Below, piece after piece: positions 6,123 through 24,785 of a stretch of DNA of 64,000 nt. How positions within the stretch are numbered: position 1 is the first letter of the stretch; each line of letters begins with the position of its first letter. A program made the position numbers and the translations under genes. The notes under the pieces were generated by a model. That model did not search any database and was not told the DNA's origin. It saw only the letters and a program-made list of their open reading frames with translations. The DNA is taken from contig CM046341.1 in NCBI GenBank assembly GCA_025403435.1, positions 17,503,319-17,567,318 on the forward strand, written 5' to 3'. The stretch is from Artocarpus heterophyllus. Its lineage: Eukaryota > Streptophyta > Magnoliopsida > Rosales > Moraceae.

Positions 6123-6143
6123 ATACTCAATCTCATCGTCTGA

Positions 6144-7235
6144 TTATGGAGACAAAGTGGAAGAAAGTTTGAAATACGTAGCTAGTGGAGTACTCACAGG
6201 TTTAGCACTATGCATATTGAATCTTTGCAAAACTTTTTCAATGTACCCTTTCTGACTCAAATATAACTTGCCTACCTTTCTATCTCTTAGAATCTCCATG
6301 CCAAGAATCTTCTTTGCAGCCCCCAAATCTTTCATCTCAAACTCTTTACTAAGTTGAGCCTTTAACTTCTTAATCTCTCCTTTATCCTTGGCAGCAATCA
6401 ATATATCATCAACATATAAGAGCAAATAAACAAAGGACCCATTATCACCCTTCTTGAAGTAGACACAACTGTCATAGCTACTCCTCTTAAACTCATGAGC
6501 GATCATAAATGAGTCAAACCTCTTATACCATTGCCTGGGAGATTGTTTCAGGTCGTAGAGAGACTTTTTCAATAAGCACACATGGCCCTCCTTACCTAAA
6601 ACTACAAAGCCCTTTGGCTGCTGCATGTAGATATCTTCCTCAAGCTCCCCATGCAAGAATGCAGTCTTCACATCTAACTGCTCAAGCTCAAGATCCTGCA
6701 TGGCCACAATACCAAGCAAAGCTCGAATCAAACTATGCTTCACAACTGAAGAGAACACGTCCGTGAAGTCTACACTTGGAACCTGACTATAACCTTTTGC
6801 AACTAGTCTGGCCTTATATCTGTGTTCTTCAACTCCTGGCATACCATCTTTTCTCTTAAACAACCACTTGCAGCAAACATCTTTCTTATCTTTAGGCAAC
6901 CTCACCAAATTCCAAGTGTCATTCTTATGAAGAGATTCCATCTCCTCCTGCATAGCAATCATCCATTTCCCTGAGTCATTACAACTAACCGCCTCTGAAT
7001 AAGTGGAAGGTTCTTCACTGCAACTAATACCTTCCGCCACTGATAAAGCATAAGCCACCAAGTCGGCCTCAGCAAACCTCTTTGGTGGCCTAACTTCTCT
7101 TCTAGGAATATCCTTGGCAATGGAATACTGTGGTAGTCTCGGCGGCGGTGATGGGGAAGCAACATCTCCATGACTTTCTAAACTTGACTGAAACATGGAA
7201 TCGAATGATGTACCAATCTCAATCTGAAGCTCCAC
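6144..7235 (-). pseudogene. Copia-A reverse transcriptase
   Basis: This is the longest frame in the element, about 363 codons. It has all RT landmarks in order: CKWLFKRKDG, KARLVAKGYSQ, DVKTAFLHGELEEDIYM and the catalytic YVDDILIAAKD. It joins the integrase frame immediately upstream at an in-frame TAG at 7236-7238, so only one stop separates the two parts there. A stop just downstream (near 6140) splits it from RNase H. This is the best preserved domain of the element. Confidence 0.9.
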
Positions 7236-8330
7236 CTATCTGCTAGACTTCTCCTGATCAATGTCACTAGATCCCGTAGTAGATGTCCCACGTAACATGG
7301 TAGTCTCATCAAACACAACATCTCTACTAATAATTACCTTCTTGGTTTCCAGGCACCATAACTTGAAGCCTTTAACTCCAGGCTTATAACCAAGAAACAC
7401 ACACTTCATAGATCTAGGCTCTAATTTACCATTATCAACATGAGCATAGGCAAGACAGCCAAAAATTCTTAAATTAGAGTAATCTGCAGGTTTACCCGAC
7501 CATACCTCCTGTGGAGTCTTCTTGTTAATAGCAATAGAAGGAGAGCGATTTACCAAGTAGCAAGCTGTAGAAGCAGCTTCAGCCCAAAACAACTTAGGTA
7601 GCCCAGTATTGGAGCGAATACAACGTACCTTCTCCATCAATGTTCTATTCATTCGCTCTGCCACACCATTTTGTTGTGGAGTACGTCGGACTGTTAAATC
7701 CCTCATAATTCCTTCTGACTTACAGAAGCCATTAAATTCATCTGAACAAAACTCTAAGCCATTATCAGTGCGGAGACGTTTAACTGGCTTATCGGTCTGT
7801 TTTTTTACCATGGTCTTCCAATGTCTGAACGTAGCAAAAACATCATTCTTTTGTTCAAAAAGAATGTCCATACCTTTCCGGAGAAGTCATCAATAATCGT
7901 AAGCATGTAATTAGCTCCACCTAGAGAAGGAACCATAGATGGTCTCCAAAGGTCAGATGGAACATACTCCAGAATATCCTTTGTGTTGTGAATGCCTTTG
8001 CCAAATCTGGCTCTCCTTTTTTTTTTCCAAACACACAGTGCTCACAAAACTCCATCTTGCCTACGCACTATCCATCAAGCAATCCTCTTTTACTTAACTC
8101 TGTCATCCTAAGCTCACTCATATGCCCCAGTCGCATATGCCATAACTTAGTGAGATCACTATCAGACATAGTGGATGTAGTAACAGCTGCATCTCCTATA
8201 ACTATAGTCCCTTTCAGAACATATAAACCAGCTGTCTTTTTCAGCCCTTTCATCATAACAAGAGCACCTTTGCTGACCTTCAAAACTCCACCTTCACCGG
8301 AGTACTTGTAACCTTTTGAGCACTCAAGGA
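7236..8330 (-). pseudogene. Copia-A GAG-pre-integrase and integrase
   Basis: The pre-integrase frame (8068-8283) has LWHMRLGHMSELRM and ends in a premature stop at the position where the left copy reads on. The integrase frame (7236-7871) has RTDNGLEFCSDEF, RTPQQNGVAERMNRTL with the catalytic glutamate, and the C-terminal PSIAINKKTPQEVW to KCVFLGY region. The first catalytic aspartate region (7890-8010) is present but in shifted frames. At least two frame breaks are seen. Confidence 0.88.
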
Positions 8331-8492
8331 AATTAAATTCCTCTTTAGATCAAGGACATGCCTCACTTCACCCAATGTCCTTACTACTCCATCATACATC
8401 TTGATCCTAATAGTTCCAATACCAGCAATCTTGCATGGAGTGTTATTACCCATCAAAATAGAGCCTTTAGATACTGTTTCATATGTTGAAAA

Positions 8493-9425
8493 CTAGTCTT
8501 GGTTGGGACACATATGAAACGTACATGCAGAGTCAAGAACCCAATCCCCACAGGGTTTCGATTCACCATCAAAAATCACCAAGAGCTCCCCTTCAGAAAC
8601 TTCTTCCACAACACTGGCCTTACCGGTCTTTTTCGTTTGCCTTCCTTTTTGATCAGCCGCTCTCTTATTCTTGTTTTGCAGTTTATAGCAGTCGGTCTTA
8701 ATGTGCCCCTTTTTCTTACAATAGTTGCAGATTTTGTCCTTGTGCCTGGACTTCGATCTGCCCTTCACATCAGCACCAGAACTAAAACTCCTCTCCTGAG
8801 TCCTACCACGAACAACAAGGCCTTCTCCTTGAGCCGCAGGTTCAGTCACAAGCTGCTTCATCTTTTCTTTAGACAGCAAGGCATCATAAACTGCATCCAA
8901 AGTAAGTGTATCCTGGCCATACAAAATTGTATCTCTAAACGTTGCATATGATGAGGGCAACGAACACAACAAGATTAACCCTAAGTCTTCTTCCTCATAC
9001 TTAACGTCCATGGCCTCCAAATCAGAGACAATCTCCTTAAAAATGGTTAAGTGTTCTTCAAGAGACGCACCTTCAGCCATCTTGTGTAGATGCAAACGTT
9101 GCTTCAGATGCAGCTTACTGGTGAGACTTTTCGTTATACACAATTGCTCCAACTTCAACCATAACGCAGTACCGGTTTTCTCCTTCAAAACATCCTGCAA
9201 ATTTCTATTCGACACATGAAGTTGAATTTGGGTTAAAGCCTTCCGATCCTTACGTTGTTTCTCCTTCGTCGTCCACGATGATGGTATCTTCTCAAACCCT
9301 AACAGCGCTTCTTCCAAATCCATCTGCCCCAACACAGCCCGCATCTTAACCTGCCAAAGACTAAACCTGGTGTCGCGATCCAAAAGTGGAATGTCGTACT
9401 TCATTTTTGCCATCGCCGAAATCAA
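8493..9425 (-). pseudogene. Copia-A gag and protease start
   Basis: A 310-codon frame runs from the gag N-terminus (MKYDIPLLDRDTRFSLWQ) through the knuckle [14 protein letters not shown] to the protease start [12 protein letters not shown]. It stops near 8493, and the downstream protease continues in other frames to about 8330. The gag part itself is uninterrupted, unlike the left copy. The N-terminal codons lie about 20 bases from the primer site, which fits a very short leader. Confidence 0.88.
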
Positions 9426-9431
9426 AGCCTC

Positions 9432-9443
9432 GCTCTGATACCA
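9432..9443 (-). other. Primer binding site of Copia-A right copy
   Basis: The minus strand reads TGGTATCAGAGC next to the 5' LTR, identical to the left copy. Confidence 0.85.
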
Positions 9444-9445
9444 CT

Positions 9446-9789
9446 TGATACGAAATTAATACGATAAAAACAAAGATTAAAAACACGCAGAGAATTTACA
9501 GGGAAATCCAAAATGAGAAAAAACCATTGGTAGAGGAGAAGAAAATCACTAAATTCGTAAAGATTACAATGGAGGCTCTAGGGAGGCTCAAAATTCGCTA
9601 ATCATAAAGCCCTAACGCAATACATCATATATATAGGTATAGGCAAAACCTTATGGGCCTGAAAATATAAACTAAACGGCCCAACAACAAAGGTCTGTAC
9701 CGTAGGGGCTCTGCCCCCGCACCACAATTTGTTGCACCGCGAGCTTTTCGGGTTAGGCCAAACTGAATTCGGGTCACCATACTTTAGTA
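9446..9789 (-). repeat. Copia-A 5' LTR of right copy (344 bp)
   Basis: It starts TGATACGAAATTAAT like the other LTR and ends TACTTTAGTA, with the terminal CA mutated to TA. About 80 bp present in the left LTR between the GGGGGC and CACAATTTGT segments is missing. The base after it belongs to the F-box gene remnant. Confidence 0.82.
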
Positions 9790-10421
9790 AGTCCCGTAAA
9801 CCATATCACCAGTAAATAGTACCATGACCCTGTGTCTCTATTGATCTAGTTTGAGCTGTCGATGAGGTCGTTGTTCTTGTACGCAAGGCTCACAGACAAA
9901 TCCCCCAATTTGAGCCGATGAATCTGACTTGGTTAGTTTAGGGAGCTCAACCCATTGCCTAGTAAACAGACTGCATATTGCGAGACGTTCCACAATATCA
10001 CTATCAGGTGGAAAATATCCGGACTTTCTGCCAAGGCAAAAAGCTCAAAAAATGCTCGTCATAGTAGAGAATGTGGGATTTCTTAGGATGATATTCGCAC
10101 ATTGGTTTTCAGATCAAATCTAGAGGGCAAGGAGGATTTAGATCTAGAACCTATTCTTTCATGATGGTAGTCAGCTGAATTGATGATAGAGAACCAATAC
10201 TTGCAGACAGCGCTACATCGGATTACAGATCGCACATCTGCTACTCGAATTAATATTTCAAGAAGCAGATCATATCTAAGACTATAAATGGCTGATTCCG
10301 CTTTTGCTTTTCTCCTCCTCTTTCCGTTGTCACTTCTCTCACTAATACTAATTTGCTGCTGCTGCGGCTGCTGCATATTGAACTTGACGATTGTCTCTTG
10401 CTGTCTTCCTCTTATTATCAT
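9790..10421 (-). pseudogene. F-box protein gene, truncated by Copia-A
   Basis: The minus-strand frame 10083-10421 has a glutamine-rich start (MQQPQQQQ is the more likely initiator, 16 codons in). An F-box follows at residues 46-86, with LRYDLLLEILIRVADVRSVI and RCSAVCKYWFSII. F-box proteins bind SKP1 in SCF ubiquitin ligases. After a frameshift near 10085, a second frame continues with VERLAICSLFTRQWVELPKL and GFVCEPC, the kind of segment found in the C-terminal half of plant F-box proteins. It is interrupted by stops near 10050 and 9840. The gene then runs into the Copia-A LTR at 9789 and its 3' part is not seen. Frameshift, stops and truncation make it a pseudogene. Confidence 0.7.
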
Positions 10422-10730
10422 TATTAGTGGACCTGCGCATATATAAGTATAATTATATTAGTTTTTACATTCTAATCTCTTTGGTCATCACACAGAGCCT
10501 TTGTTATTGTAAAACAAATAGCAAAAACCACAAAATGACAACAGTTCACACACGTAAGCTATTTTTTATTTCTTTTGGTTCTTCTAGCAAAAGAGGAAAA
10601 AAAATGTAACTGAACGGGAACACATATACAACTACCACTAACAACATATCATAGATTCCTAACTAATTGGAATCTAACATTTTGTAAGTAGTGGAGTTTT
10701 AACCTATGGGATAAAAATAATCTCTCCATT
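10422..10730. other. Upstream region of the F-box remnant
   Basis: AT-rich non-coding DNA. A TATA-like stretch (CATATATAAG) lies at about 10438-10447, close to the first ATG of the F-box frame, which favours the internal start. I see no other feature. Confidence 0.3.
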
Positions 10731-11276
10731 ATGGGTGTTCATAAATTGGATTTCGTGGATTTAAGGTTAATTCGAAATTCAATTCAAAACTTTTGGAATG
10801 AGAAAATCCTAATCTGCAATCCCATCCAAAACCTTCTGATTGAATTCATAGATTCACGAATTAAACTGACATTTTAAAAATAAAAATATTGAAAACCAAT
10901 TTTTTCAACATTAAAAATTAAAATAAACAATCTATAATATAAAATAGCTTACTAAAGATAAATTTATTACAATCAATTACTAAGACAAACTAGTTTCAAG
11001 AAACCTTAAAATAAAGTTTTTTTAAAAAAAAAACTCAAAATAAAGTATTGTTTATTCGTGAACAGTATTGAGAACTTCAAATCAATTCAAAATTATAAGA
11101 CATATAAATATATATATATATATATATATATGTGGTTTTAAATTGATGGATTAAGAATTTTTTGATGTGTAATCTAATCTAAAACTTCCAAATTGGAATT
11201 TTTTTCAATTCGTTACTAATACAAAACTCTTCACAATAGTATATATTACGGATTGATAGATTTTATGAACACCCCT
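10731..11276. mobile_element. Non-autonomous inverted-repeat element, hAT-like
   Basis: The ends are inverted copies of about 14 bp: GGGTGTTCATAAA at 10733 and TTTATGAACACCCC at 11261. The inner 100 bp on each side also look partly inverted (AATTCAATTCAAAA against CAAATCAATTCAAAA). The terminal sequence TAGGGGTGTTCA resembles plant hAT-type MITE ends. Possible 8-bp flanks CTCTCCAT and CTATCTTT match at only 5 of 8 bases, so a target duplication is not convincing. It contains a (TA)n tract at 11108-11131. Confidence 0.5.
11108..11131. repeat. (TA)n microsatellite
   Basis: Uninterrupted TA dinucleotides inside the inverted-repeat element. Confidence 0.9.
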
Positions 11277-12430
11277 ACTATCTTTCTCACATGAAACCCA
11301 CGCAAAATAAATAAATAAATAAATAAATAAAAACATAAAAATAAAAATAAAAACAGTGAAAACCAAATAGTACTAAAAACTGAAATAAAAGGCTAGCAAC
11401 CTCCATAACTCGTCTAATGTACTAAATCATTCAACAAGAAGGGAACAAGAAAGTCATTTGAGTAGAGAAAACGATTCACAAAATGCTCATCGACTATTAT
11501 TTTGCACCAACAAAATATTCATAGACAAATTGGAAGATAAACTGAAAATGCCTAGGCAAAATAGCATAAGCGTTGAGCAAGAATATAAAATTCACTAAAA
11601 TAAGAAAATCAATGTATACGAGTTTAAAGGTATATATATACCAGAAAGTGCTAGACCAAGAGGCACTGAGTGAGAGAGTCATGCGTCGAGCAAGAAGAGG
11701 CGGTGGGCCGAGTAAGGGAACTGGGATGGGAAACCTCAAGCGGTGGCTAGTGCAAAGTGGAAAGTAAAATTTGAAACCAAAAGAAGAGATGAATGGAGAG
11801 ATAATTCAAATGAAAACCCAACAGCTATATATGGCTATTTAGTCTATGGGGTATATGGGCTCAGTTTATGGAATATTGAGTTAGAGCGTGAGAATCACAA
11901 TCTAAATTGGTTAACAATTAATCCTTGTAACATCCGTAAATTTCAAGGCATTATCGTTTTACTAAGAGACACCGTTTTTATTAATTACCGCGTTTCTATC
12001 AAAAGTCATCGTTTTCTAAGCCACTATCATTTAAAAGATAATTCAATATTCTGATCGCTGTCCTTTTTTTAAGGGAGTGTCGTTTTCTTTTGTTACTACT
12101 AATAATGAAAAATCATAAATAATTCTCTATTTTTGGGTGTGTGGTAGTGTTTTCAATTGTTTTTGAAAATGTTGATGCACTCTTTAGAGGTATGATGAAA
12201 ACCAAAACGTTTTCTAAATGGCATTTCTTTAACAAATATTTTGAAAACAAAAAAAAATAGTGAGAATGATTTTTTTTAAGGAAATAGAAAATTGTAAAAA
12301 GTTAGATTTTGCAAGCTTCATTTAATGTTCCTTGATGATGTAATCTTATCTTATAACATGAGGTAAGGCTGATAATTTGTCTTAATGGGTCGTGTTTATG
12401 TCAATTCATTTATTAATTATGTCAGAAAAC
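11277..12430. other. AT-rich intergenic region left of the tandem array
   Basis: It holds an (AAAT)n-like tract at 11305-11355 and little else that is clear. On the minus strand, 11640-11739 could be a short exon (MRFPIPVPLLGPPPLLARRM onward) because it is GC-rich against its surroundings and ends at a GTATAT donor-like site, but there is no recognised domain or partner exon. The last 60 bases (from about 12370) have TAATGGGTCGTGTTTATG, a word typical of degenerate plant repeats that continues into unit 1 of the array. Confidence 0.3.
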
Positions 12431-13108
12431 ATCAACCCAACCATGCCCCATATATCAAACGTGTCAAAAGATATCAATCCAAACACGACTCATTTAATAA
12501 TCGTGTTAATCGTATCAACCCGTTAAACCTGTTTAAATTTGTATATTGAATTAATAATTGAAATAACTATGACTTATTTAACATAATTAAGACATATATA
12601 ATAGATTTATTGACCACTTTATCAATTGTTTTTAGATTACCTATAGATTTAAAAATTCATAATATTCATATTTAATAAAAGTAAGTAGCGTTTTTTTGTG
12701 CATCATACAAATATTCTATTATATCATATATAATAGTTTCAAATTATATATGTAGTTAATTATATTATTTTTTGCCAATCGGATTAAGATAGTCAACTTT
12801 AACTCAATACATTTAATAATCGTATTAATCGTGTCAACTTGTTATTGACTTGAACCATTTATAGTTAATCTACACCCTTTTAACTTCTGGCAGATTTCGT
12901 TTACACAGGCCCAAATCAATGCAACTAATTGTAAAATAAAAATATCACAAACATATAAATGGGATAAGTATTATTGTGGTTTATAATCATTATGTTATGA
13001 AATCATTGCATAACCGAAAATACACAAACTTTCGATGATTATTAGGTATAAAGTTTGATATGTTATCAAGCATTGATCCCATGACTGGGTGAATCAATAT
13101 GTGGACAT
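12431..13108. other. AT-rich part of the tandem unit, 3' of the peptide gene
   Basis: The equivalent stretches in the other units are 15405-16081, 18378-19055 and 21340-22017. They contain repeated words of the type TTTAATAATCGTGTTAATCG and ATCAACCCGTTAAACC, possibly from an old degenerate transposon, and no open frame with a domain. The 3' UTR and polyadenylation region of IDL-A must lie here. No further signal can be defended. Confidence 0.5.
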
Positions 13109-13429
13109 TCAAACCATCAAGTGGGGTGGATCCGGAGGCGATCTATGGCTGGGCCCAGATGGAGGAACAGGAGGTCCCTTGGGCTTCATGCTAAACCAAA
13201 TTTGTTTGCCGTCGAAGAGGGGTGGATGGTCAGGAGTTGTTCCTCGGTTGGGCCTAGATGGAGGAATCGGGATTCCTTTGGGCCTTATGGTGAACCTTAT
13301 TCTGTTGTCGTTTACTGAGATTACTCTTCCGTCGGTGGAATAGGAGGAGGAGCCTAGAATTACAAGTATCATTAGCACAAATGCCATCCAAAATGATAGA
13401 GACTTTTTAGAATTATTTGCCATCCCCAT
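13109..13429 (-). CDS. IDA/PIP-like secreted peptide precursor, IDL-A unit 1
   Basis: An intact 106-residue protein. Residues 1-33 form a signal peptide with the hydrophobic core FWMAFVLMILVILG. A variable linker follows, then two copies of a proline-rich motif: PKGIPIPPSRPN (50-61) and PKGPPVPPSGPS (83-94). The motif closely matches the conserved C-terminal motif of IDA/IDL precursors (core PIPPSAPSK in Arabidopsis IDA) and the SGPS core of PIP/PIPL peptides. Those peptides are cut out in the apoplast and activate LRR receptor kinases in abscission, root emergence or immunity. Known IDA proteins have one motif at the very C-terminus; here there are two and a further 12-residue tail. In this unit the first SGPS core is changed to SRPN. 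A 284-bp MITE lies just upstream of the start. Member of a four-copy array; receptor and expression are unknown. Confidence 0.8.
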   Translation of the reverse strand: MGMANNSKKSLSFWMAFVLMILVILGSSSYSTDGRVISVNDNRIRFTIRPKGIPIPPSRPNRGTTPDHPPLFDGKQIWFSMKPKGPPVPPSGPSHRSPPDPPHLMV

Positions 13430-13457
13430 TTTTTGTTTCTTTTTCTATGGCCTTGGA

Positions 13458-13741
13458 GGAAGATTTTGATGAAAGGGACAAAAAAAATTTTCAATTGGGT
13501 AAGAGGCCACTTTTTTTTGGAACAAAAAAAACACGCTTTTTTTTGCGGGTAAACTGTCCCAGTTTTATCAACAAAACAAGAAAAATGACTGTAGCAAAAT
13601 AAGGAACCTCAACATGATGAAAAAAAAACTGGAACCGTTTTGATATCCAAAAAGCCTTTTTTTGTGCCAAAAACTGTCCAAAAAAAAGTGGCCTGCTTAC
13701 CAAAAAAATTTTTGGCCAGAGGCCATTTCTCAAAATGCCCC
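13458..13741. mobile_element. MITE, unit 1, in the IDL-A 5' region
   Basis: Long imperfect terminal inverted repeats: GGAAGATTTTGATGAAA at the left and the inverse of GGGGCATTTTGAGAAA at the right. The similarity continues inward to CAGGCCACTTTTTTTTGGA. It is flanked by the 9-bp target duplication GGCCTTGGA (13449-13457 and 13742-13750), which suits a Mutator-like MITE. The frames across it (13491-13803) are by-products. It sits 28 bp upstream of the IDL-A start. Confidence 0.85.
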
Positions 13742-13805
13742 GGCCTTGGAGAATGAGGATTTCTGGGCTCTCTAGCTCTTAAAATAACAGTTTCCACGTC
13801 CATTA

Positions 13806-13897
13806 TTAGGAATGTAAATCTTTAATTAGGAAATAAATATTGGCCATTCAATTAGGAATGTAAATCTTTAATTAGGAAATAAATATTGGCCATTCAA
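13806..13897. repeat. 46-bp minisatellite, 2 copies, unit 1
   Basis: Two tandem copies of a 46-bp unit starting TTAGGAATGTAAATCTTTAA, in the IDL-A promoter. A TATA-like ATTATAAATG follows at its right. Confidence 0.9.
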
Positions 13898-13970
13898 TAT
13901 TATAAATGGATCAGATTTGTTACTTCATTTAGTTATCTTAGTGATGTTTAAATCACAAAAAATTAATTAA

Positions 13971-14040
13971 GAGCATATTGCTAGCATAAAGGTCATCCAA
14001 AACCGCATTGACTTCTTACCATATAATTTTCCATAACCAT
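13971..14040 (-). pseudogene. IDL-B remnant (start of a second peptide gene), unit 1
   Basis: On the minus strand it starts ATGGTTATGGAAAATTATAT and aligns base by base to the first 20 codons of IDL-A, including the FWM(A/T)F signal-peptide core. A one-base shift breaks the frame and nothing after the signal peptide is recognisable. It abuts the Gypsy-1 LTR fragment at the start codon. Confidence 0.7.
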
Positions 14041-14043
14041 TTT

Positions 14044-14520
14044 TGTTGATGCTTACCAGAGTTCAGCGGCGGATCAACACCACATGCTGCAACACATGGT
14101 GGTCAGCGTTTTCCCTGCTCATCTCTGCCTGATCGGATGGACCTGCTACAAGAGGAAGGATGCTTTGCGAGCAAGAAAAAGATAGGACAATCAATAGACA
14201 AGGGCTCTCCGATGCTCGAGGCAGGGGTTACTCGGCAGATAACGGGAACTTGTTAGTTTGGAAAAAGCATGCATGTTGGATGCAACAAATGCACCCTGTT
14301 TATAGGTTGCCACTTGGACCGGGTGTTAGGTGGGTTTTGCCCACGACCCGAGTGTCACATCAAGGACTATTAGGTGGTAGAGGACAAGTGTCGTGCTCTC
14401 TGTCGGTGGATTGTTTTCCATCCGATGGCAAGTTGTCCGCCATCTGTTGGCCATGATGGTAGTAGCAGTCCATTTACAAGTGAAAAGAATTTGACCCGAG
14501 TTGCTGCTTGACCAGAGGAG
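14044..14520 (-). mobile_element. Gypsy-1 LTR fragment carried in unit 1
   Basis: It matches 22705-23181 and the first 475 bases of the complete LTR at 50238-50876. It starts TGTTGATGCTTACC after the target bases ATTTT and ends at GCGAC, where the Copia-1 LTR was inserted. It includes the LTR TATA box (CTATTTATAG on the plus strand near 14300, mutated in this unit). Confidence 0.9.
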
Positions 14521-14525
14521 GCGAC

Positions 14526-14936
14526 TGTTCGGTTTTGTTGGATTGTGTGATTCAAAAAAGTAACAAAAAATTAAAATTAATTCCCAAAAAAGGCTCGCAA
14601 GATTCATGCAATTCGATTAGATTGATAGGAAAGTCATAGAATCTTACGAGGATAACAAAAAGGGGGATCATTTTTGGAAGGAAGAGAGCGGGTTTACTTC
14701 GGTGACACCCTAACTTAGGCTTTTCGTATTCGGGATCGGATTAAGACGTTGTTACTTAGAGCAACGCCTTCTGCAAGTATCCACATGAACAGACTCTCTC
14801 AAAAACGAATTGGTGTGCTAGCACTCTCTCCTTTGCATTAAATGACTCTTTCTAATTTTTAGGGTTTTTAATTTTCTCGCCTTTTAGAATAATAAAACGC
14901 CTTCTTTCTGCTTAATTTAGCTAGAAACCCTGAAAT

Positions 14937-14972
<36 letters not shown>

Positions 14973-15404
14973 ATTGACTTCGAGAAAGAGTCAGATTTTA
15001 ACTAAGGTAAACTATAATTTGAATATGATTCAGAGAATCTAGATAATGTCTGTAATTCGATTATGATTCAGTGAATCTAGATAATATCTATAATTCGAAT
15101 ATGATTCAGAGAATTTGGATAATGTCAGATTCAATGAACCTAGACTTATCTAGTACATTAAATCTGGACATTATCAGGTTTATTGAACCTAGACACAATA
15201 AACCCAAAATTCATTTTTTATCTGTTTTTAGTGTGCGACCCTGTAGGTTTACATTACATTTGTAGTGGGCATGAAATTCCGTTTCTAGCCCACAAATCAT
15301 AAGTGGCCTCTAGCAAGACATTATGATTACCCAAGTTATGTGAATGTCAATAATCCGACATAACCTAATCTACAATAAGTATTAAAGTCCTTTTGTCACT
15401 TCAT
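14526..15404 (-). mobile_element. Copia-1 LTR fragment carried in unit 1
   Basis: It matches 23187-24048 of the Copia-1 LTR and stops at the duplication breakpoint. It starts TGTTCGGTTTTGTTGG. A long (TA)n run lies at 14937-14971, and three tandem copies of a 38-bp repeat (TAATTCGAATATGATTCAGA onward) lie at about 15015-15124. Confidence 0.9.
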
Positions 15405-16081
15405 ATCAACCCAAACATGACCCATAAATCAAACGTGTCAAAAGATATCAATCCAAACACAACTCATTTAATAATCGTGTTAATCGTATCAACCCGTTAA
15501 ACCTGTTTAAATTTGTATATTGAATTAATAATTGAAATAACTATGACTTATTTAACATGATAAGACATATATAATAGATTTATTGACCACTTTATCAATT
15601 GTTTTTAGATTACCTATAGATTTAAAAATTCATAATATTCATATTTAATAAAAGTAAGTAGTGTTTTTTTGTGCATCATACAAATATTCTATTATATCAT
15701 ATATAATAGTTTCAAATTATATATGTAGTTAATTATATTATTTTTTGCCAATCGTATTAAGATAGTCAACTTTAACTCAATACATTTAATAATCGTATTA
15801 ATTGTGTCAACTTGTTATTGACTTGAACCATTTATAGTTCATCCGCACCCTTTTAACTTCCGGCAGATTTCGTTTACACAAGCCCAAATCAATGCATCTA
15901 ATTGTAAAATAAAAATATCACAAACATATAAATGGGATAAGTATTATTGTGGTTTATAATCATTATGTTATGAAATCATTGCATAACCGAAAATACACAA
16001 ACTTTCGATGATTATTAGGTATAAAATTTGATATGTTATCAAGCACTGATCCCATGACTGGGTGAATCAATATGTGGACAT

Positions 16082-16402
16082 TCAAACCATCAAGTGGGGT
16101 GGATCCGGAGGTGATCTATGGCTGGACCCAGATGGAGGAACAAGAGGTCCCTTGGGCTTCATGCTAAACCAAATTTGGTTGCCGTCGAAGAGGGGTGGAT
16201 GGCTAGGAGTTGTTCCTCGGCTGGACCCAGATGGAGGAATCGGGATTCCTTTAGGCCTTATGGTGAACCTTATTCTGTTGTCGTTTACTGAGATTACTCT
16301 TCCGTCGGTGGAATAGGAGGAGGAGCCTAGAGTTACAAGTATCATCAGCACAAATGCCATCCAAAACGACAGAGACTTTTTAGAATTATTTGCCATCCCC
16401 AT
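16082..16402 (-). CDS. IDA/PIP-like secreted peptide precursor, IDL-A unit 2
   Basis: Intact, 106 residues, with the same start, signal peptide and two-motif layout as unit 1. Motif 1 is PKGIPIPPSGSS and motif 2 PKGPLVPPSGSS, so both SGPS cores have become SGSS by single C-to-T changes. The linker has DHPP changed to SHPP and DGKQ to DGNQ. If the proline in the core matters for receptor binding, as in IDA/PIP peptides, this copy may give weaker or different ligands; that is inference. A MITE lies 28 bp upstream. Confidence 0.8.
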   Translation of the reverse strand: MGMANNSKKSLSFWMAFVLMILVTLGSSSYSTDGRVISVNDNRIRFTIRPKGIPIPPSGSSRGTTPSHPPLFDGNQIWFSMKPKGPLVPPSGSSHRSPPDPPHLMV

Positions 16403-16430
16403 TTTTTGTTTCTTTTTCTATGGCCTTGGA

Positions 16431-16717
16431 GGAAGATTTTGATGAAAGGGACAAAAAAAATTTTGAATTGGGTAAAAGGCCTCTTTTTTTTTGAAACAAA
16501 AAAAACACGCTTTTTTGTGCAGGGAAACTGTCCCAGTTTTTTTCAACAAAACAAGGAAAATGACTGTAGCAGAATAAGGAACCTCAACATGATGAAAAAA
16601 AAAACTGGAACCGTTTTGATGTCCAAAAAGCCTTTTTTTTGTGCCAAAAACTGTCCAAAAAAAAGTGGCCAATTTACCAAAAAAATTTTGGCCAGAGGCC
16701 ATTTCTCAAAATGCCCT
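16431..16717. mobile_element. MITE, unit 2
   Basis: Same element and position as in unit 1, with the 9-bp duplication GGCCTTGGA at 16422-16430 and 16718-16726. Confidence 0.85.
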
Positions 16718-16781
16718 GGCCTTGGAGAATGAGGATTTCTAGGCTCTCTAGCTCTTAAAATAACAGTTTCCACGTCCATTA

Positions 16782-16873
16782 TTAGGAATGTAAATCTTTA
16801 ATTAGGAAATAAATATTGGCCATTCAATTAGGAATGTAAATCTTTAATTAGGAAATAAATATTGGCCATTCAA
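16782..16873. repeat. 46-bp minisatellite, 2 copies, unit 2
   Basis: Two copies of the same 46-bp unit as in unit 1, in the IDL-A promoter. Confidence 0.9.
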
Positions 16874-16946
16874 TATTATAAATGAATCAGATTTGTTACT
16901 TCATTTAGTTATCTTAGTGATGTTTAAATCACAAAAAATTAATTAA

Positions 16947-17016
16947 GAGCATATTGTTAGCATAAATGTCATCCAAAACCACATTGACTTCTTACCATAT
17001 AATTTTCCATAACCAT
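16947..17016 (-). pseudogene. IDL-B remnant, unit 2
   Basis: Same start-codon and signal-peptide remnant as in unit 1, with minor changes, again directly followed by the Gypsy-1 LTR fragment. Confidence 0.7.
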
Positions 17017-17019
17017 TTT

Positions 17020-17495
17020 TGTTGATGCTTACCGGAGTTCAGCGGCAGATCAACACCACATGTGACTACACACGGTGGTCAGCGTTTTCCCTGCTCGTCT
17101 ATGCCTGATCGGATGGACCTGCTACAAGAGGAGGGATGCTTTACGAGCAAGAAAAAGACAGGACAATCAATAGACAAGGGCTCTCTGATGCTCGAGGCAG
17201 GGGTTACTTGGCAGATAACGGGAACTTGTCAGTTTGGAAAAAGCATGCATGTTGGATGCAACAATGCACCCTTTTTATAAGTTGCCACTTGGACTGGGTG
17301 ATAGGTGGGTTTTGCCCACGACCCGAGTGTCACATCAAGGCCTATCAGGTGGTAGAGGACAAGTGTCGTGCTCTTTGTCGGTGGATTGTTTTCCATCCGA
17401 TGGCAAGTTATCCGCCATCTATTGGCCATGATGGTAGTAGCAGTCCATTTACAAGTGAAAAGAATTTGACCCAAGTTGGTGCTTGACCTGAGGAG
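17020..17495 (-). mobile_element. Gypsy-1 LTR fragment, unit 2
   Basis: Equivalent of 22705-23181. It ends at the target duplication GCGAC (17496-17500) of Copia-1. The frames on both strands across it are LTR by-products. Confidence 0.9.
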
Positions 17496-17500
17496 GCGAC

Positions 17501-18377
17501 TGTTCGGTTTTGTTGGATTTTGTGATTAAAAAAAGTAACAAAAAATTAAAATTAATTCCCACAAAATGCTTGCAAGATTCATGCAATTCGATTAGATTGA
17601 TAGGAAAGTCATAGAATCTTACTAGGATAACAAAAAGGGGGATCATTTTGGAAGGAAGAGAGTGGGTTTACTCCGGTGACACCCAAACTCAAGCTTTTCG
17701 TATTCGGGATCGGATTCTGACGTTGTTACTTAGATCAATGCCTTCTGCAGGTATCCACCCGAACAGACTCTCTCAAAAACGAATTGGTGTGCTAGCACTC
17801 TCTCCTTTGCATTAATTGACTCTTTCTAATTTTTAGGGTTTTTAATTTTCTCGCCTTTTAGAATAATAGAACGCCTTTTTTCTTCTTAATTTAGCTAGAA
17901 ACCCTGAAATAGATATATTTATATATATCTATTGACTTCGAGAAAGAGTCAGATTTTAACTAAGGTAAACTATAATTCGAATATGATTCAGAGAATCTAG
18001 ATAATGCCTGTAATTCGAATATGATTCAGAGAATCTAGATAATATCTATAATTCGAATATGATTCAATGAATTTGGATAATGTCAGATTCAATGCACCTA
18101 GACTTATCTAGTACATTGAATCTAGGTGCATTGAATCTGGACATTATCATGTTTATTGAACCTAGACACAGTAAACCCAAAATTTATTTTCTATCTGTTT
18201 TAAGTGTGCGACCTTGTAGGTTTACATTACATTAGTGGTGTGCATGAAATTCCATTTCTAGCCCACAAATCATAAGTGGCCTCTAGCACGACATTATGAT
18301 TACCCAAGTTATGTGAATGTCAATAATCCGACATAACCTAATCCACAATAAGTATTAAAGTCCTTTTGTCACTAGAT
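17501..18377 (-). mobile_element. Copia-1 LTR fragment, unit 2
   Basis: Equivalent of 23187-24048. The (TA)n tract is short and interrupted here, and a small extra duplication (TGCACCTAGA / AGGTGCATTGAATC) is seen near 18090-18135. Confidence 0.9.
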
Positions 18378-19055
18378 ATCAACCCAAACATGAAACATAT
18401 ATCAAACGTGTCAAAAGATATCAATCTAGACACGACTCATTTAATAATCGTGTTAATCGTATCAACACATTAAACCAGTTTAAATTTGTATATTGAATTA
18501 ATAATTGAAATAACTATGACTTATTTAACATGATTAAAACATATATAATAGATTTATTGACCACTTTATCAATTGTTTTTAGATTACCTATAGATTTAAA
18601 AATTCATAATATTCATATTTAATAAAAGTAAGTAGCATTTTTTTGTGCATCATACAAATACTCTATTATATCATATATAATAGTTTCAAATTATATATGT
18701 AGTTAATTATATTATTTTTTGCCAATCGTATTAAGATAGTCAACTTTAACTCAATACATTTAATAATCGTATTAATTGTGTCAACTTGTGATTGACTTGA
18801 ACCATTTATAGTGAATCCGCACCCTTTTAACTTCCGACAGATTTCGTTTACACAGTCCCAAATCAATGCAACTAATTGTAAAATAAAAATATCACAAACA
18901 TATAAATGGGATAAGTATTATTGTGGTTTATAATCATTATGTTATGAAATCATTGCATAACTGAAAATACACAAACTTTTGATGATTATTAGGGATAAAG
19001 TTTGATATGTTATCAAGCACTGATCCCATGACTGGGTGAATCAATATGTGGACAT

Positions 19056-19376
19056 TCAAACCATCAAGTGGGGTGGATCCGGAGGCGATCTATGGCTGGG
19101 CCCAGATGGAGGAACAGGAGGTCCCTTGGGCTTCAAGCTAAACCAAATTTGTTTGCCGTCAAAGAGGGGTGGATGGTCAGGAGTTGTTCCTCGGCTGGAC
19201 CCAGATGGAGGAATCAGGATTCCTTTGGGCCTTATGGTGAACCTTATTCTGTTGTCGTTTACTAAGATTACTCTTCCGTCGGTGGAATAGGAGGAGGAGC
19301 CTAGAATTACAAGTATCATCAGCACAAATGCCATCCAAAACGACAGAGACTTTTTAGAATTATTTGCCATCCCCAT
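19056..19376 (-). CDS. IDA/PIP-like secreted peptide precursor, IDL-A unit 3
   Basis: Intact, 106 residues, same layout. Motif 1 is PKGILIPPSGSS, with the conserved I-P-I-P changed to I-L-I-P and the core SGPS to SGSS. Motif 2 is PKGPPVPPSGPS and keeps the full core. Other changes are VISV to VILV and FSM to FSL. The second motif is therefore the better candidate ligand from this copy. A MITE lies upstream, as in units 1 and 2. Confidence 0.8.
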   Translation of the reverse strand: MGMANNSKKSLSFWMAFVLMILVILGSSSYSTDGRVILVNDNRIRFTIRPKGILIPPSGSSRGTTPDHPPLFDGKQIWFSLKPKGPPVPPSGPSHRSPPDPPHLMV

Positions 19377-19404
19377 TTTTTGTTTCTTTTTCTATGGCCT
19401 TGGA

Positions 19405-19693
19405 GGAAGATTTTGGTGAAAGGGACAAAAAAAATTTTGAATTGGGTAAAAGGCCTCATTTTTTTTAAACAAAAAAAAACACGCTTTTTTGTGCAGGTAA
19501 GCTGTCCTAGTTTTTTTTAACAAAACAAGAAAAATGACTGTAGCAGAATAAGGAACCTCAGCATGATTAAAAAAAAAATGGAACCGTTTTGATGTCCAAA
19601 AAGCCTTTTTTTTTTGTGCCAAAAACTGCCCAAAAAAAAGTGGCCTATTTACCAAAAAAAATTTTGGCTGGAGGCCATTTCTCAAAATGCCCC
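19405..19693. mobile_element. MITE, unit 3
   Basis: Same element and position as in unit 1, with the 9-bp duplication GGCCTTGGA at 19396-19404 and 19694-19702. Confidence 0.85.
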
Positions 19694-19757
19694 GGCCTTG
19701 GAGAATGAGGATTTCTGGGCTCTCTAGCTCTTAAAATAACAGTTTCCACATCCATTA

Positions 19758-19849
19758 TTAGGAATGTAAATCTTTAATTAGGAAATAAATATTGGCCATT
19801 CAATTAGGAGTGTAAATCTCTAATTAGGAAATAAATATTGGCCATTCAA
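19758..19849. repeat. 46-bp minisatellite, 2 copies, unit 3
   Basis: Two copies of the promoter minisatellite, the second with two point changes. Confidence 0.9.
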
Positions 19850-19924
19850 TATTATAAATGGATAAGATTTGTTACTTCATTTAGTTATCTTAGTGATGTT
19901 TAAATCACAAAAAAAATTAATTAA

Positions 19925-19994
19925 GAGCATATTGTTAGCATAAAGGTCATCCAAAACCGCATTGACTTCTTACCATATAATTTTCCATAACCAT
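19925..19994 (-). pseudogene. IDL-B remnant, unit 3
   Basis: Same remnant of the second peptide gene, abutting the Gypsy-1 LTR fragment. Confidence 0.7.
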
Positions 19995-19997
19995 TTT

Positions 19998-20474
19998 TGT
20001 TGATGCTTACCGGAGTTCAGCGGCGGATCAACAACACATGCGGCTACACACGGTGGTCAGTGTTTTCCCTGCTCGTCTCTGCCTGATCGGATGGACCTGC
20101 TACAAGAGGAGGGACGCTTTGCGAGCAAGAAAAAGATAGGACAATCAATAGACAAGGGCTCTTCGATGCTCAAGGCAGGAGTTACTCGGCAGATAACGGG
20201 AACTTGTTAGTTTGGAAAAAGCATGCATGCTGGATGCAACAAATGCACCCTATTTATAGGTTGCCACTTGGACCGGGTGTTAGGTGGGTTTTGCCCACGA
20301 CCCGAGTGTCACATCAAGGCCTATCAGGTGGTAGAGGACAAGTGTCGTGCTCTCTGTCGGTGGATTGTTTTCCATCCGATGGCAAGTTATCTGCCATCTG
20401 TTGGCCATGATGGTAGCAGCAGTCCTTTTACAAGTGAAAAGAATTTGACCCGAGTTGGTGCTTGACCTGAGGAG
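19998..20474 (-). mobile_element. Gypsy-1 LTR fragment, unit 3
   Basis: Equivalent of 22705-23181, ending at GCGAC (20475-20479). Confidence 0.9.
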
Positions 20475-20479
20475 GCGAC

Positions 20480-21339
20480 TGTTCGATTTTGTTGGATTGT
20501 GTGATTCAAAAAAGTAACAAAAAATTAAAATTAATTCCCAAAAAAGGCTCGCAAGATTCATGCAATTCGATTAGATTGATAGGAAAGTCATAGAATCTTA
20601 CTAGGATAACAAAAAGGGGGATCATTTTTGGAAGGAAGAGAGCGGGTTTACTCCGGTGACACCCTAACTCAGGCTTTTCGTATTCGAGATCGGATTAAGA
20701 CGTTGTTACTTAGAGCAACGCCTTCTGCAAGTATCCACATGAACAGACTCTCTCAAAAATGAATTGGTGTGCTAGCACTCTCTCCTTTGCATTAAATGAC
20801 TCTTTCTAATTTTTAGGGTTTTTAATTTTCTCACCTTTTAGAATAATAGAACGCCTTCTTTCTTCTTAATTTAGCTAGAAACCCTGAAATAGATATATAT
20901 ATATATCTATTGACTTCGAGAAAGAGTCAGATTTTAACTAAGGTAAACTATAATTCGAATATGATTCAGAGAATCTAGATAATGTCTGAATTCGAATATG
21001 ATTCAGAGAATCTAGATAATATCTATAATTCAAATATGATTCAGAGAATTTGGATAATGTTAGATTCAATGAACCTAGACTTATCTAGTACATTGAATCT
21101 GGACATTATCAGGTTTATTGAACCTAGACACAGTAAACCCAAAATTCATTTTTTATCTGTTTTAAGTGTGCGACCCTATAGGTTTACATTACATTAGTAG
21201 TGGGCATGAAATTCCGTTTCTAGCCCACAAATCATAAGTGGCCTCTAGCAAGACATTATGATTACCCAAGTTATGTGAATGTCAATAATCTGACATAACC
21301 TAATCCACAGTAAGTATTAAAGTCCCTTTGTCACTAGAT
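20480..21339 (-). mobile_element. Copia-1 LTR fragment, unit 3
   Basis: Equivalent of 23187-24048, ending at the unit junction CACTAGAT/ATTAACCC. Confidence 0.9.
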
Positions 21340-22017
21340 ATTAACCCAAACATGACCCATATATCAAACGTGTCAAAAGATATCAATCCCGACACGACTC
21401 GTTTAATAATCGTGTTAATCGTATCAACCCGTTAAACCTATTTAAATTTGTATATTGAATTAATAATTGAAATAACTATGACTTATTAAACATTATTAAG
21501 ACATATATAATAGATTTATTGACCACTTTATCAATTGTTTTTAGATTACCTATTGATTTAAAAATTCATAATATTCATATTTAATAAAAGTAAGTAGCGT
21601 TTTTTTGTGCACCATACAAATATTCTATTATATCATATATAATAGTTTCAAATTATATATGTAGTTAATTATATTATTTTTTGCCAATCGTATTAAAATA
21701 GTCAACTTTAACTCAATACATTTAATAATCGTATTAATTGTGTCAACTTGTTATTGACTTGAACCATTTATAGTTAATCCGCACCCTTTTAACTTTCGGT
21801 AGATTTCGTTTACACAGGCCCAAATCAATGCAACTAATTGTAAAATAAAAATATCACAATCATATAAATGGGATAAGTATTATTGTGGTTTATAATCATT
21901 ATGTTATGAAATCATTGCATAACCGAAAATACACAAACTTTTGATGATTATTAGGTATAAAGTTTGATATGTTATCAAGCACTGATCCCATGACTGGGTG
22001 AATCAATATGTGGACAT

Positions 22018-22338
22018 TCAAACCATCAATTGGGGTGGATCCGGAGGTGGTCTAAGGTTGGGCCCAGATGGATCAGAAGGCATTCCCCTGGGCTTCATGC
22101 TAAACCAAATTTGTTTGCCGTCAAAGAGGGGCGGATGGTCAGGAGTTGTTCCTCGGCTGGGCCCAGATGGAGGAATCGGGATTCCTTTAGGCCTTATGGT
22201 GAACCTTATTCTATTGTCGTTTACTGAGATTACTCTTCCGTCGGTGGAATAGGAGGAGGAGCCTAGAATTACAAGTATCATCAGCACAAATGCCATCCAA
22301 AACGACAGAGACTTTTTAGAATTATTTGCCATCCCCAT
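22018..22338 (-). CDS. IDA/PIP-like secreted peptide precursor, IDL-A unit 4
   Basis: Intact, 106 residues, with the signal peptide at residues 1-33. Motif 1 is PKGIPIPPSGPS, the most canonical form in the array and the closest to IDA/IDL ligands. Motif 2 is PRGMPSDPSGPN, clearly different from the PKGPPVPPSGPS of units 1 and 3, with several changes packed into about 45 bases, and the tail is PPPDPPQLMV. This copy lacks the MITE, so its promoter keeps the original spacing: a TATA-like ATTATAAAT near 22560 lies about 220 bp upstream of the start, against about 470 bp in unit 1. As the copy still joined to the original right flank, it is a good candidate for the ancestral regulatory state. Confidence 0.82.
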   Translation of the reverse strand: MGMANNSKKSLSFWMAFVLMILVILGSSSYSTDGRVISVNDNRIRFTIRPKGIPIPPSGPSRGTTPDHPPLFDGKQIWFSMKPRGMPSDPSGPNLRPPPDPPQLMV

Positions 22339-22356
22339 TTTTTTTTCTTTTTCTAT

Positions 22357-22365
22357 GGCCTTGGA
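22357..22365. other. Empty MITE target site in unit 4
   Basis: A single copy of GGCCTTGGA with no MITE, exactly as expected of an unoccupied site. The IDL-B promoter at 50877 onward also has no insertion here. Confidence 0.85.
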
Positions 22366-22420
22366 GAATGAGGATTTCTGGGCTCTCTAGCTCTTAAAAT
22401 AACAGTTTCCATGTCCATTA

Positions 22421-22558
22421 TTAGGAATGTAAATCTCTAATTAGGAAATAAATATTGGCCATTCAATTAGGAATGTAAATCTTTAATTAGGAAATAAATA
22501 TTGGCCATTCAATTAGGAATGTAAATCTTTAATTAGGAAATAAATATTGGCCATTCAA
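22421..22558. repeat. 46-bp minisatellite, 3 copies, unit 4
   Basis: Three tandem copies here, against two in the other units. The repeat lies between the IDL-A start and the TATA-like site. Confidence 0.9.
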
Positions 22559-22631
22559 TATTATAAATGGATCAGATTTGTTACTTCATTTAGTTATCTT
22601 AGTGATGTTTAAATCACAAAAAATTAATTAA

Positions 22632-22701
22632 GAGCATATTGTTAGCATAAAGGTCATCCAAAACCGCATTGACTTCTTACCATATAATTTTCCATAACCA
22701 T
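22632..22701 (-). pseudogene. IDL-B remnant at the true Gypsy-1 insertion site
   Basis: The minus strand starts ATGGTTATGGAAAATTATAT. It aligns to the IDL-A start (ATGGGGATGGCAAATAATTC) and on through AAGTC..TTTTGGATG, coding the signal-peptide core FWM-F. One base is missing or gained relative to IDL-A, so the frame is broken, and beyond about 22632 the sequence no longer matches. Gypsy-1 begins at 22705, with the target bases ATTTT overlapping the start codon. The matching promoter is found across the nest at 50877. Confidence 0.72.
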
Positions 22702-22704
22702 TTT
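22700..22704. other. Gypsy-1 target site duplication, left
   Basis: ATTTT, repeated at 50877-50881 directly after the right LTR of Gypsy-1. Confidence 0.85.
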
Positions 22705-23181
22705 TGTTGATGCTTACCGGAGTTCAGCGGCAGATCAACACCACATGCGGCTACGCACGATGGTCAGCGTTTTCCCTGCTCGTCTCTGCCTGATCGGATG
22801 GACCTGCTACAAGAGGAGGGACGCTTTGCGAGCAAGAAAAAGACAGGACAATCAATAGACAAGGGCTCTCCGATGCTCGAGGCAGGGGTTACTCGACAGA
22901 TAATGGGAACTTATTAGTTTGGAAAAAGCATGCATGCTGGATGCAACAAATGCACCCTATTTATAGGTTGCCACTTGGACCAGGTGTTAGGTAGGTTTTG
23001 CCCACGACCCGAGTATCACATCAAGGCCTATCAGGTGGTAGAGGACAAGTGTCGTGCTCTCTATCGGTGGATTGTTTTCCATCTGATGGCGAGTTGTCCG
23101 CCATCTGTTGGCCATGATGGTAGTAGCAGTCCATTTACAAGTGAAAAGAAATTGACCCGAGCTGGTGCTTGACCTGAGGAG

Positions 23182-23186
23182 GCAAC
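23182..23186. other. Copia-1 target site duplication, left
   Basis: GCAAC here and GCGAC in units 1-3, matching GCGAC at 40585-40589 beyond the right end of Copia-1. The one-base difference is a later mutation in unit 4. Confidence 0.82.
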
Positions 23187-24785
23187 TGTTTGGTTTTGTT
23201 GGATTTTGTGATTCAAAAAAGTAACGGAAAATTAAAATTAATTCCCACAAAACGCTCGCAAGATTCATGCAATTCGATTAGATTGATAGGAAAGTCGTAG
23301 AATCTTACTAGGATAACAAAAAGGGGGATCATTTTTAGAAGGAAGAGAGCGGGTTTACTCCGGTGACACCCTAACTCAAGCTTTTTGTATTCAAGATCGG
23401 ATTCAGATGTTGTTACTTAGAGCAACGCCTTCTGTAGGTATCCACACGAACTGACTCTCTCAAAAACGAATTGGTGTGCTAGCACTCTCTCCTTTGCATT
23501 AAATGACTCTTTCTAATTTTTAGGGTTTTTAATTTTCTCGCCTTTAGAATAATAGAACGCCTTCTTTCTTCTTAATTTAGCTAGAAACCCTGAAATAGAT
23601 ATATATATATATATCTATTGACTTCGAGAAAGAGTCAGTTTTTTACTAAGGTAAACTATAATTCGAATATGTTTCAAAGAATCTAGATAATTTCTGTAAT
23701 TCGAATGTGATTCAGAGAATCTAGATAATATCTATAATTTGAATATGATTCAAAGAATTTAGATAATGTCAGATTCAATGAACCTAGACTTATCTAGTAC
23801 ATTGAATCTGGATATTATCAAGTTTATTGAACCTAGACACAGTAAACCCAAAATTCATTTTTTATCTATTTTAAGTGTGCGACCCTATAGGTTTACATTA
23901 CATTAGTAGTGGGCTTGAAATTTCGTTTCTAGCCCACAAATTATAAGTGGCTTCTCGCAAGACATTATAATTACCCAAGTTATGTGAATGTCAATAATCC
24001 GACATAACCTAATCCACAATAAGTATTAAAGTCCTTTTATCTCTAGATACCTTGATTGAACATAAGGCATGGTTTCTGTTATCCTTATACTATTCAATCA
24101 TATTATTTCTCAATCTTAAGTAAACTGATATTGATAACCCTTATCAATTCATTCCAATATGGCCATACATTTTTCTTTAGTCTAACTTTTTAAGGGGCCC
24201 ATAGATATCTTTCTTATAATAAATGAGGGACAAATTCCTCCTTAATCACTCACATTCCTTACATGATTCACTCTATATCCAACAACAATCTATTCCATCA
24301 TCCTGTTAAAGATAATATTAGAATGTGTCAAAATATAGAACTTGTCATGTAGGAAATAATGGTGATTTCAGGTCAGAAGACTAGGATAATACTATTGTGA
24401 TGAGAATCACTTATGACAATTATCTATGCAGTACTCTCATAACAGTTCGATCCAATACACCATTTCTCAAATATGTATCTATGAGTTGACTTTGTATCTC
24501 ATACACATGATTTGTAAAACATAATCATCAATCAAACTTCATACTAGTCTTTATTCATTATTATCCCAATAATAATGACTAACTAGGGATAATTTAGAAT
24601 AGAATTCAATTTTCACCTAAGAGTTTTACTATCAAGTCACATACTTGATGACCTTAGGCAGAATTAACTATTCATGGAATTAGAATAAAAAACAATTATA
24701 AAAATCCCTCTTTATTAATAAAATGCAAATGTAACGAAGTCAAAATGTGGTTATTACATAATTGGCCTAGGGCACATCACTTATA
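23187..24785 (-). repeat. Copia-1 3' LTR (1599 bp)
   Basis: Plus-strand ends are TGTTTGGTTTTG and CATCACTTATA, the latter a mutated form of the CATCACTAACA seen at 40584. It contains a (TA)n tract near 23600 and the 38-bp tandem repeat near 23655-23770. Its first 862 bp are what was multiplied in the tandem array. Confidence 0.88.

Follow-up and report, generated by a model that had tools for sequence, protein, structure and literature searches.

A gene for a small secreted-type precursor with two proline-rich, IDA-like motifs stands in four head-to-tail copies (W1 to W4) in a 64-kb stretch of Artocarpus heterophyllus DNA, hereafter called the window (C15:17503319-17567318, C15 being the contig that carries it). 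In the open copies the leader half of the precursor, codons 1-46, is constrained in its amino acids, and the ligand half, codons 47-106, which holds both motifs, is at least unconstrained. The reading favoured here, at about even confidence, is a recent tandem amplification of one two-peptide IDA-like precursor gene, with a constrained leader, a relaxed ligand half and most window copies likely without the original ligand.

A six-frame search of the genome (985.0 Mb, 334 contigs) gave at least ten matches, namely W1 to W4, four more copies on C15 in a second cluster 0.3 Mb away (B1 to B4), one copy on contig C6 and one distant relative on contig C25. Only the best candidates were scored in the genome searches, and all copy and locus counts are therefore lower bounds. 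With at least eight close copies on C15 and at least one on C6, the copy-number expansion proposed in an earlier note on this DNA is borne out. The reading frame is open in seven of the nine close copies and broken in the other two: B2 is missing both start ATGs and has 28 bp inserted within motif 2, and a TGA stands at codon 38 of the C6 copy. Because of its broken frame B2 was excluded from the selection tests, C6 served as outgroup or comparison only, and B4, whose 5′ side is a different repeat, was excluded from whole-unit comparisons. The insertion in B2 repeats the stretch coding for SGPS and illustrates a possible route to a change of motif number in the family.

Variation in the leader and ligand halves

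Each unit holds one open reading frame (ORF) of 106 codons with an ATG start on the minus strand (Table 1). The signal peptide claimed in the earlier note is matched by a predicted hydrophobic leader, with a best 14-residue mean hydropathy of 2.76 from residue 13 in the majority protein sequence, and the two motif stretches occupy residues 46-71 and 79-104. Only two residues of codons 1-46 differ among the four window copies. Pooled over the seven open C15 copies, the ratio of nonsynonymous to synonymous differences per site (pN/pS) was 0.13 in codons 1-46, 1.34 in codons 47-106 and 0.80 over all codons, pS being equal in both halves (0.063). The test of this ratio set in the earlier note is therefore split, with a constrained leader and a ligand half that is not.

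With the 3′ flank as yardstick, codons 1-46 of the seven copies carry 3 nonsynonymous changes where 12.4 are expected (P = 0.0017) and 6 synonymous changes where 5.6 are expected; codons 47-106 carry 38 nonsynonymous changes where 21.0 are expected (P = 0.0005) and 7 synonymous where 7.3 are expected. The leader deficit persists without W4 (P = 0.007) and without W4 and B4 (P = 0.015). When the whole noncoding unit was used as yardstick for six copies, nonsynonymous changes numbered 3 against 11.6 expected in codons 1-46 (P = 0.01) and 29 against 19.3 in codons 47-106 (P = 0.025; 18 against 16.0 without W4, P = 0.34). Restricting the count to W1 to W4 gave 2 where 8.1 are expected (P = 0.018) in codons 1-46 and 21 where 13.2 are expected (P = 0.05) in codons 47-106. 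Nonsynonymous and synonymous counts differed between the halves with Fisher P values of 0.0037 (seven copies), 0.022 (without W4) and 0.088 (without W4 and B4). Compared pairwise with C6, the copies had ratios of 0.18-0.29 in the leader half and 0.57-0.90 in the ligand half.

IDA/IDL peptides have a PIP core with conserved Pro and Ser. The SGPS core is intact in only 3 of the 8 window motifs (W1 motif 2, W3 motif 2 and W4 motif 1) versus 6 of 6 in B1, B3 and B4, the open copies of the second cluster (P = 0.03, post hoc). Both cores are thus intact in each of these three copies and in none of the four window copies. In W2 a serine takes the aligned place of the central proline in both motifs. 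The central hydroxyproline of IDA sits in the receptor pocket, and a proline in its place impairs HAESA binding (PMC4848090). From its sequence W2 is predicted to give peptides inactive on HAESA-type receptors.

In the earlier note the four genes were called intact, and their staying open was taken to suggest recency or selection. That they are four conserved hormone genes, which raise the dosage of a functional IDA/PIP ligand, we consider quite improbable. The two motif stretches are there as claimed, the frames are open, their start ATGs follow A-rich leaders and relatives exist in other eudicots, but the motifs are mostly not intact, W2 has no SGPS core at all, the ligand half stands at or above neutral, and the His-Asn and GxGH ends of the known families are absent. 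Open frames were also considered as proof of selection and rejected, since four copies would stay stop-free with a probability of about 0.36 under substitutions alone, which makes open frames by themselves weak evidence.

That same probability favours the alternative that the copies are non-functional passengers in transposon-rich DNA and that the quiet leader is due to chance or gene conversion, as do the two broken copies out of nine, the five changed motif cores in the window and an insertion adjoining the start codon in five of the eight C15 copies (see below). Against it stands the leader deficit, which concerns nonsynonymous changes alone while synonymous ones are as expected, and the alignment of seven units, where 30 gap intervals were found and only the B2 insertion falls within an ORF. 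Passengers of this kind are judged unlikely.

Somewhat less probable still is diversifying selection, in which the need for secretion keeps the leader conserved while selection pushes the ligand half to vary, so that the array yields a set of variant or decoy peptides in the manner of venom or defensin families. The nonsynonymous excess speaks for it, and none of 106 noncoding windows of 180 columns in the unit is as variable as the ligand half of W1 to W4, B1 and B3. Altered ligands can have effects, since an IDA peptide in which Ala replaces Lys66 and Arg67 may, according to PMC4848090, be weakly dominant negative in Arabidopsis. But without W4, 17 of 121 noncoding windows are as variable as the ligand half, and when changes are counted as events 7 of 106 are so even with W4. 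The private changes of W4 are clustered, as one event might leave, though a DNA search for a donor of its motif-2 patch gave nine matches, all of them W4 itself or known copies (others at most 87%), and no conversion donor. Many changes in W1 to W3 are C-to-T or G-to-A. Such changes are expected of methylated DNA. A hormone gene turned into a fast-changing arsenal, with fixed leader, diversifying ligand half, amplification through transposon joints into two clusters and variant or antagonist peptides directed at LRR receptor kinases, is a further and slightly more doubtful form of this idea.

Several observations weigh against the favoured reading of constrained leader and relaxed ligand half, or narrow it. 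The nonsynonymous excess in codons 47-106 (3′-flank yardstick) falls to 27 against 18.2 without W4 (P = 0.03) and is gone without W4 and B4 (18 against 16.1, P = 0.35), so that a ligand half above neutral rests on two copies. When neighbouring changes of one split were counted as one event, the ligand half exceeded noncoding sequence with P = 0.028 including W4 and P = 0.11 excluding it, and in W1 to W3 alone it was not more variable than noncoding sequence (P = 0.87). Total variation in the leader half was not significantly below noncoding (P = 0.12), the constraint being in amino-acid changes only, a point that also suits the passenger alternative. C6 and B2 keep SGPS cores despite their broken frames; together with B1, B3 and B4 they make core loss a feature of the window copies and not of the family. 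The reading was reached from DNA and protein sequence.

Placement among IDA-like peptides

A profile built from the seven open C15 copies and the C25 relative was searched against a large protein collection (E ≤ 10). Nine proteins were matched, all nine tagged PF27884.1 and six of them below E 0.05. The best match was Morus notabilis L484_008897 (P0041, E 4.7e-22) with two modules, followed by the ENA proteins P0042 (E 4.1e-15) and P0043 (E 4.0e-9) with three and two modules. Manihot A0A2C9VMK3 (E 8.8e-6) and the Nelumbo "proline-rich protein 2" (E 0.0017) have three intact SGPS each, and the Brassicaceae proteins of Cochlearia and Microthlaspi (E 0.012 and 1.6) two each; support is weak for the Nelumbo and the two Brassicaceae proteins. 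PPSGPS followed by a proline-rich stretch was found in seven of the nine (P0041-P0047), P0048 being an ordinary potato IDL ending in RRHN (E 2.5) and P0049 a mixed case (E 4.6). As to the lineage specificity inferred in the earlier note, one relative with two motifs, P0041 of Morus, is present in the protein collection. P0042 and P0043 are otherwise near-identical precursors, a case of module gain or loss between close relatives.

Aligned with hhalign, the copies matched six of the seven multi-motif proteins with E 1.1e-18 over 86 columns and 15 IDL-type rows more weakly (E 7.6e-13), with a query profile that is shallow (Neff 1.3) and contains the Morus-like C25 sequence. A search of the protein collection with W4 as single sequence gave nothing; it was the profile including the C25 relative that reached the family. 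A Pfam scan of the precursor gave no useful match, and neither did Arabidopsis IDA or three IDLs of the same genome, so this is not evidence either way. A PDB sequence search returned one chance match only (E 0.32).

IDA/IDL genes are described in PMC4627355 by a coding region below 120 amino acids, a hydrophobic secretion signal and a final His-Asn. Like them the array gene is small, at 106 amino acids, has its predicted leader followed by Arg and a PKG..PPS(G/A)PS core, and reads as a single exon, leader and both motifs lying in one open frame of the DNA. It is unlike them in having two motifs instead of one and a proline-rich tail, and in lacking the His-Asn motif end, in whose place SRGTTPDHPP and SHRSPPDPPH or variants are found. 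The double-motif class of PIP/PIPL (PIP2, PIP3 and PIPL1) has two tandem SGPS motifs in a secreted precursor (PMC4526919); the array gene has two modules per precursor, with both SGPS cores intact in B1, B3 and B4. The C-terminal GxGH given for PIP/PIPL in PMC4526919 is absent, window copies ending in PPHLMV or PPQLMV, and the gene has the PKG that precedes the core in IDLs of the same genome. By sequence, then, the precursor behaves as IDA-type, and lacking both His-Asn and GxGH it is not a strict member of IDA/IDL or PIP/PIPL. Of the IDA/IDL-PIP assignment in the earlier note, the IDA-like double-motif precursor stands and strict membership does not.

Its repeated PPSGPS module, proline-rich tail and profile similarity place the gene in a branch of IDA-like precursors that have several motifs. 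The precursors of Morus, Manihot, Nelumbo, Cochlearia and Microthlaspi likewise have a leader and two or three PPSGPS motifs, with a proline-rich stretch replacing RHN and F-G-x-LP(K/R)G or similar before most motifs. Unlike these relatives, the array copies are eight in two clusters on one contig and have many cores changed. No named multi-motif IDA-like group without the His-Asn end was found in the open-access papers searched.

The same genome also carries canonical relatives. A genome search with Arabidopsis IDA gave at least 11 loci, 9 of 11 being IDL-like frames with a His-Asn end (two on C7 and one each on C8, C13, C14, C23, C24, C28 and C235), and a canonical IDL of this genome had its nearest matches in Ficus and Morus (70 and 69% identity). 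The C25 locus is a single-motif relative, LPKGMLVPPSGPSRRPPPPDQPTS, with a broken partner on C26 that is 80-83% identical in DNA.

Structure and origin of the array

The array, 12431-24048, consists of four head-to-tail units of about 2.97 kb. The best repeat family is spaced by 2973, 2974 and 2962, and self-BLAST reproduced the unit boundaries at 12431, 15405, 18378, 21340 and 24049; together with the ORF list this confirms the units, open frames and coordinates of the earlier note. Units are 94.8-95.3% identical in their longest pieces and 91.1-92.5% in the unit 4 pieces beyond the gene. Trees were made from the ORF, from the 3′ flank and from the noncoding unit; none had a starred, that is well-supported, branch, and they did not separate the clusters, as in a burst or an exchange between copies. 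With units about 5% apart, the fairly recent origin claimed earlier holds, and the transposon sequences said to surround the array were recovered as pieces.

Table 1. Positions of the array units, precursor ORFs, motifs, insertions and related copies (window coordinates unless a contig is given).
Feature	Position	Strand	Basis
Unit 1 (W1; array end with natural 3′ flank)	12431..15404	-	repeat spacing, self-BLAST, C6 homology
Unit 2 (W2)	15405..18377	-	repeat spacing, self-BLAST
Unit 3 (W3)	18378..21339	-	repeat spacing, self-BLAST
Unit 4 (W4; without MITE, runs into full Copia LTR)	21340..24048	-	self-BLAST
ORF W1, 106 aa, leader and two EPIP-like motifs	13109..13429	-	ORF call
W1 motif 1, core SRPN	13217..13294	-	
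W1 motif 2, core SGPS	13118..13195	-	
ORF W2, 106 aa; SGSS in place of SGPS in both motifs	16082..16402	-	ORF call, motif alignment
W2 motif 1, core SGSS	16190..16267	-	
W2 motif 2, core SGSS	16091..16168	-	
ORF W3, 106 aa; motif 1 SGSS, motif 2 SGPS	19056..19376	-	ORF call, motif alignment
W3 motif 1, core SGSS	19164..19241	-	
W3 motif 2, core SGPS	19065..19142	-	
ORF W4, 106 aa; motif 1 SGPS, motif 2 heavily changed	22018..22338	-	ORF call, motif alignment
W4 motif 1, core SGPS	22126..22203	-	
W4 motif 2, core SGPN; clustered private changes at 22030-22088	22027..22104	-	
MITE-like insertion, 284 bp, 28 bp from W1 start codon	13458..13741	.	
MITE-like insertion at W2 (approximate)	16433..16721	.	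genome search
MITE-like insertion at W3 (approximate)	19407..19697	.	genome search
Truncated LTR piece of unit 1 (counterparts at about 17503-18377 in unit 2 and 20487-21339 in unit 3)	14528..15400	-	
Repeat read as 3′ LTR of Copia element (part up to 24048 in unit 4, repeated in units 1-3)	23189..24781	-	BLAST limits
Second-cluster copies B1, B2, B3, B4	C15:17171661, 17174680, 17177352, 17198767		six-frame search
C6 copy	C6:11370150		six-frame search
C25 distant relative	C25:1053943		six-frame search

An assembly artefact, in which misplaced haplotypes now read as extra copies or as two clusters, is highly improbable. Window positions 1-13458 match the B4 stretch and its flank with 95.35% identity over 13.5 kb, a divergence possible between haplotypes, but the 64-kb window contains no N, divergence between units is about as large within one array as between the clusters, indels are private and insertions unevenly spread, and copy numbers differ (4, 3 and 1). 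The 4-unit alignment has 18 indel intervals while the four ORFs are equal in length, which shows that one unit was not assembled four times. The long match to the B4 stretch is read as a segmental duplication in addition to the tandem one. Between 11878 and 13447 the window is homologous to C6, beyond the end of unit 1, and W1 therefore keeps the natural 3′ flank.

The repeat in which unit 4 ends is read as the 3′ long terminal repeat (LTR) of a Copia element because it follows the end of a Copia-like ORF at 24800 and has a partner, 39029-40580 (88.6% identical), after which a primer-binding-site-like sequence comes. Units 1-3 hold this LTR only up to the place equal to 24048, where it is joined to the gene 3′ flank, and the second cluster has these end points too. 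Jukes-Cantor distances are 0.124 between the two LTRs and 0.054 between units (from a unit difference of 5.2% set by hand), with no rate assumed; the larger LTR distance suggests that the Copia element is older than the array. The truncated LTR pieces have the same orientation as each gene. An LTR promoter driving the genes was considered and set aside.

Upstream of the genes lies a miniature inverted-repeat transposable element (MITE), present in W1, W2, W3, B1 and B3, the five C15 copies mentioned above. In W1 it is flanked by copies of the 9-bp direct repeat TCCAAGGCC and has an 18-bp subterminal inverted repeat. W4 has a single TCCAAGGCC and no insertion, B2 and B4 lack the MITE by BLAST, and in C6 it is absent together with some neighbouring sequence, so that C6 is not a clean empty site. 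It is a dispersed repeat with at least 44 matches, the best 40 of 2518 first-look candidates having been scored. The idea that it lowers translation through upstream ATGs was dropped, since the MITE-free copies W4, B2 and B4 are richer in ATGs within 420 bp upstream (14, 11 and 15) than the MITE copies (2 to 5).

These joints would fit amplification in the following order, of which the junctions are observed. At the start a Copia element would have lain upstream of the gene; a join of the inside of its 3′ LTR to the gene 3′ flank likely gave the first duplicate, and unequal exchange and the larger segmental duplication may then have raised the number to eight, spread over two clusters 0.3 Mb from each other. 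In five of the eight the MITE now stands between the start codon and the older 5′ flank.

Other repeats were seen at these loci. Between gene 5′ flank and LTR piece every unit has an equivalent of a 482-bp piece, 14044-14525, likely transposon-derived and shared with 50238-50720, 51894-52374 and 62045-62525 (77-85%). Beside B4 lies a satellite, C15:17199147-17205499, of 21 copies spaced by 301-304 bp (mean 95.7% identity to one chosen copy); it is built of the peptide gene's own 5′ flank, matching window 13784-14133, and starts about 60 bp from the B4 start codon. Elsewhere in the window, inverted repeats at 40585-50876 and 51737-62049, about 10.3 kb each, 72-79% identical, less than 1 kb apart and with Gypsy-like ORF pieces, read like two related back-to-back elements or an old inverted duplication. 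A direct repeat, 3082-5202 and 7626-9709 (91.8% identical), reads Copia gag-like, with long open frames on both strands.

Possible action and meaning of the amplified gene

The predicted hydrophobic leader would direct the precursor into the secretory pathway, where, by analogy with IDA, proteases may release one or both proline-rich peptides and the central proline of SGPS may be hydroxylated. The peptide would be sensed by a putative LRR receptor kinase of HAESA/HSL type or by a related one. The His-Asn end required by HAESA is absent, and for IDA without its terminal Asn no interaction with HAESA was seen (PMC4848090).

Such peptide hormones are described in PMC4526919 as variable outside a conserved C-terminal ligand. 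The amplified copies show the reverse of this pattern, the leader half holding and the ligand half changing. If expressed, they would form a compact natural test of the fate of a peptide hormone after amplification, with the intact-core copies B1, B3 and B4 beside W1 to W4, and the array draws attention to multi-motif IDA-like precursors without the His-Asn end.

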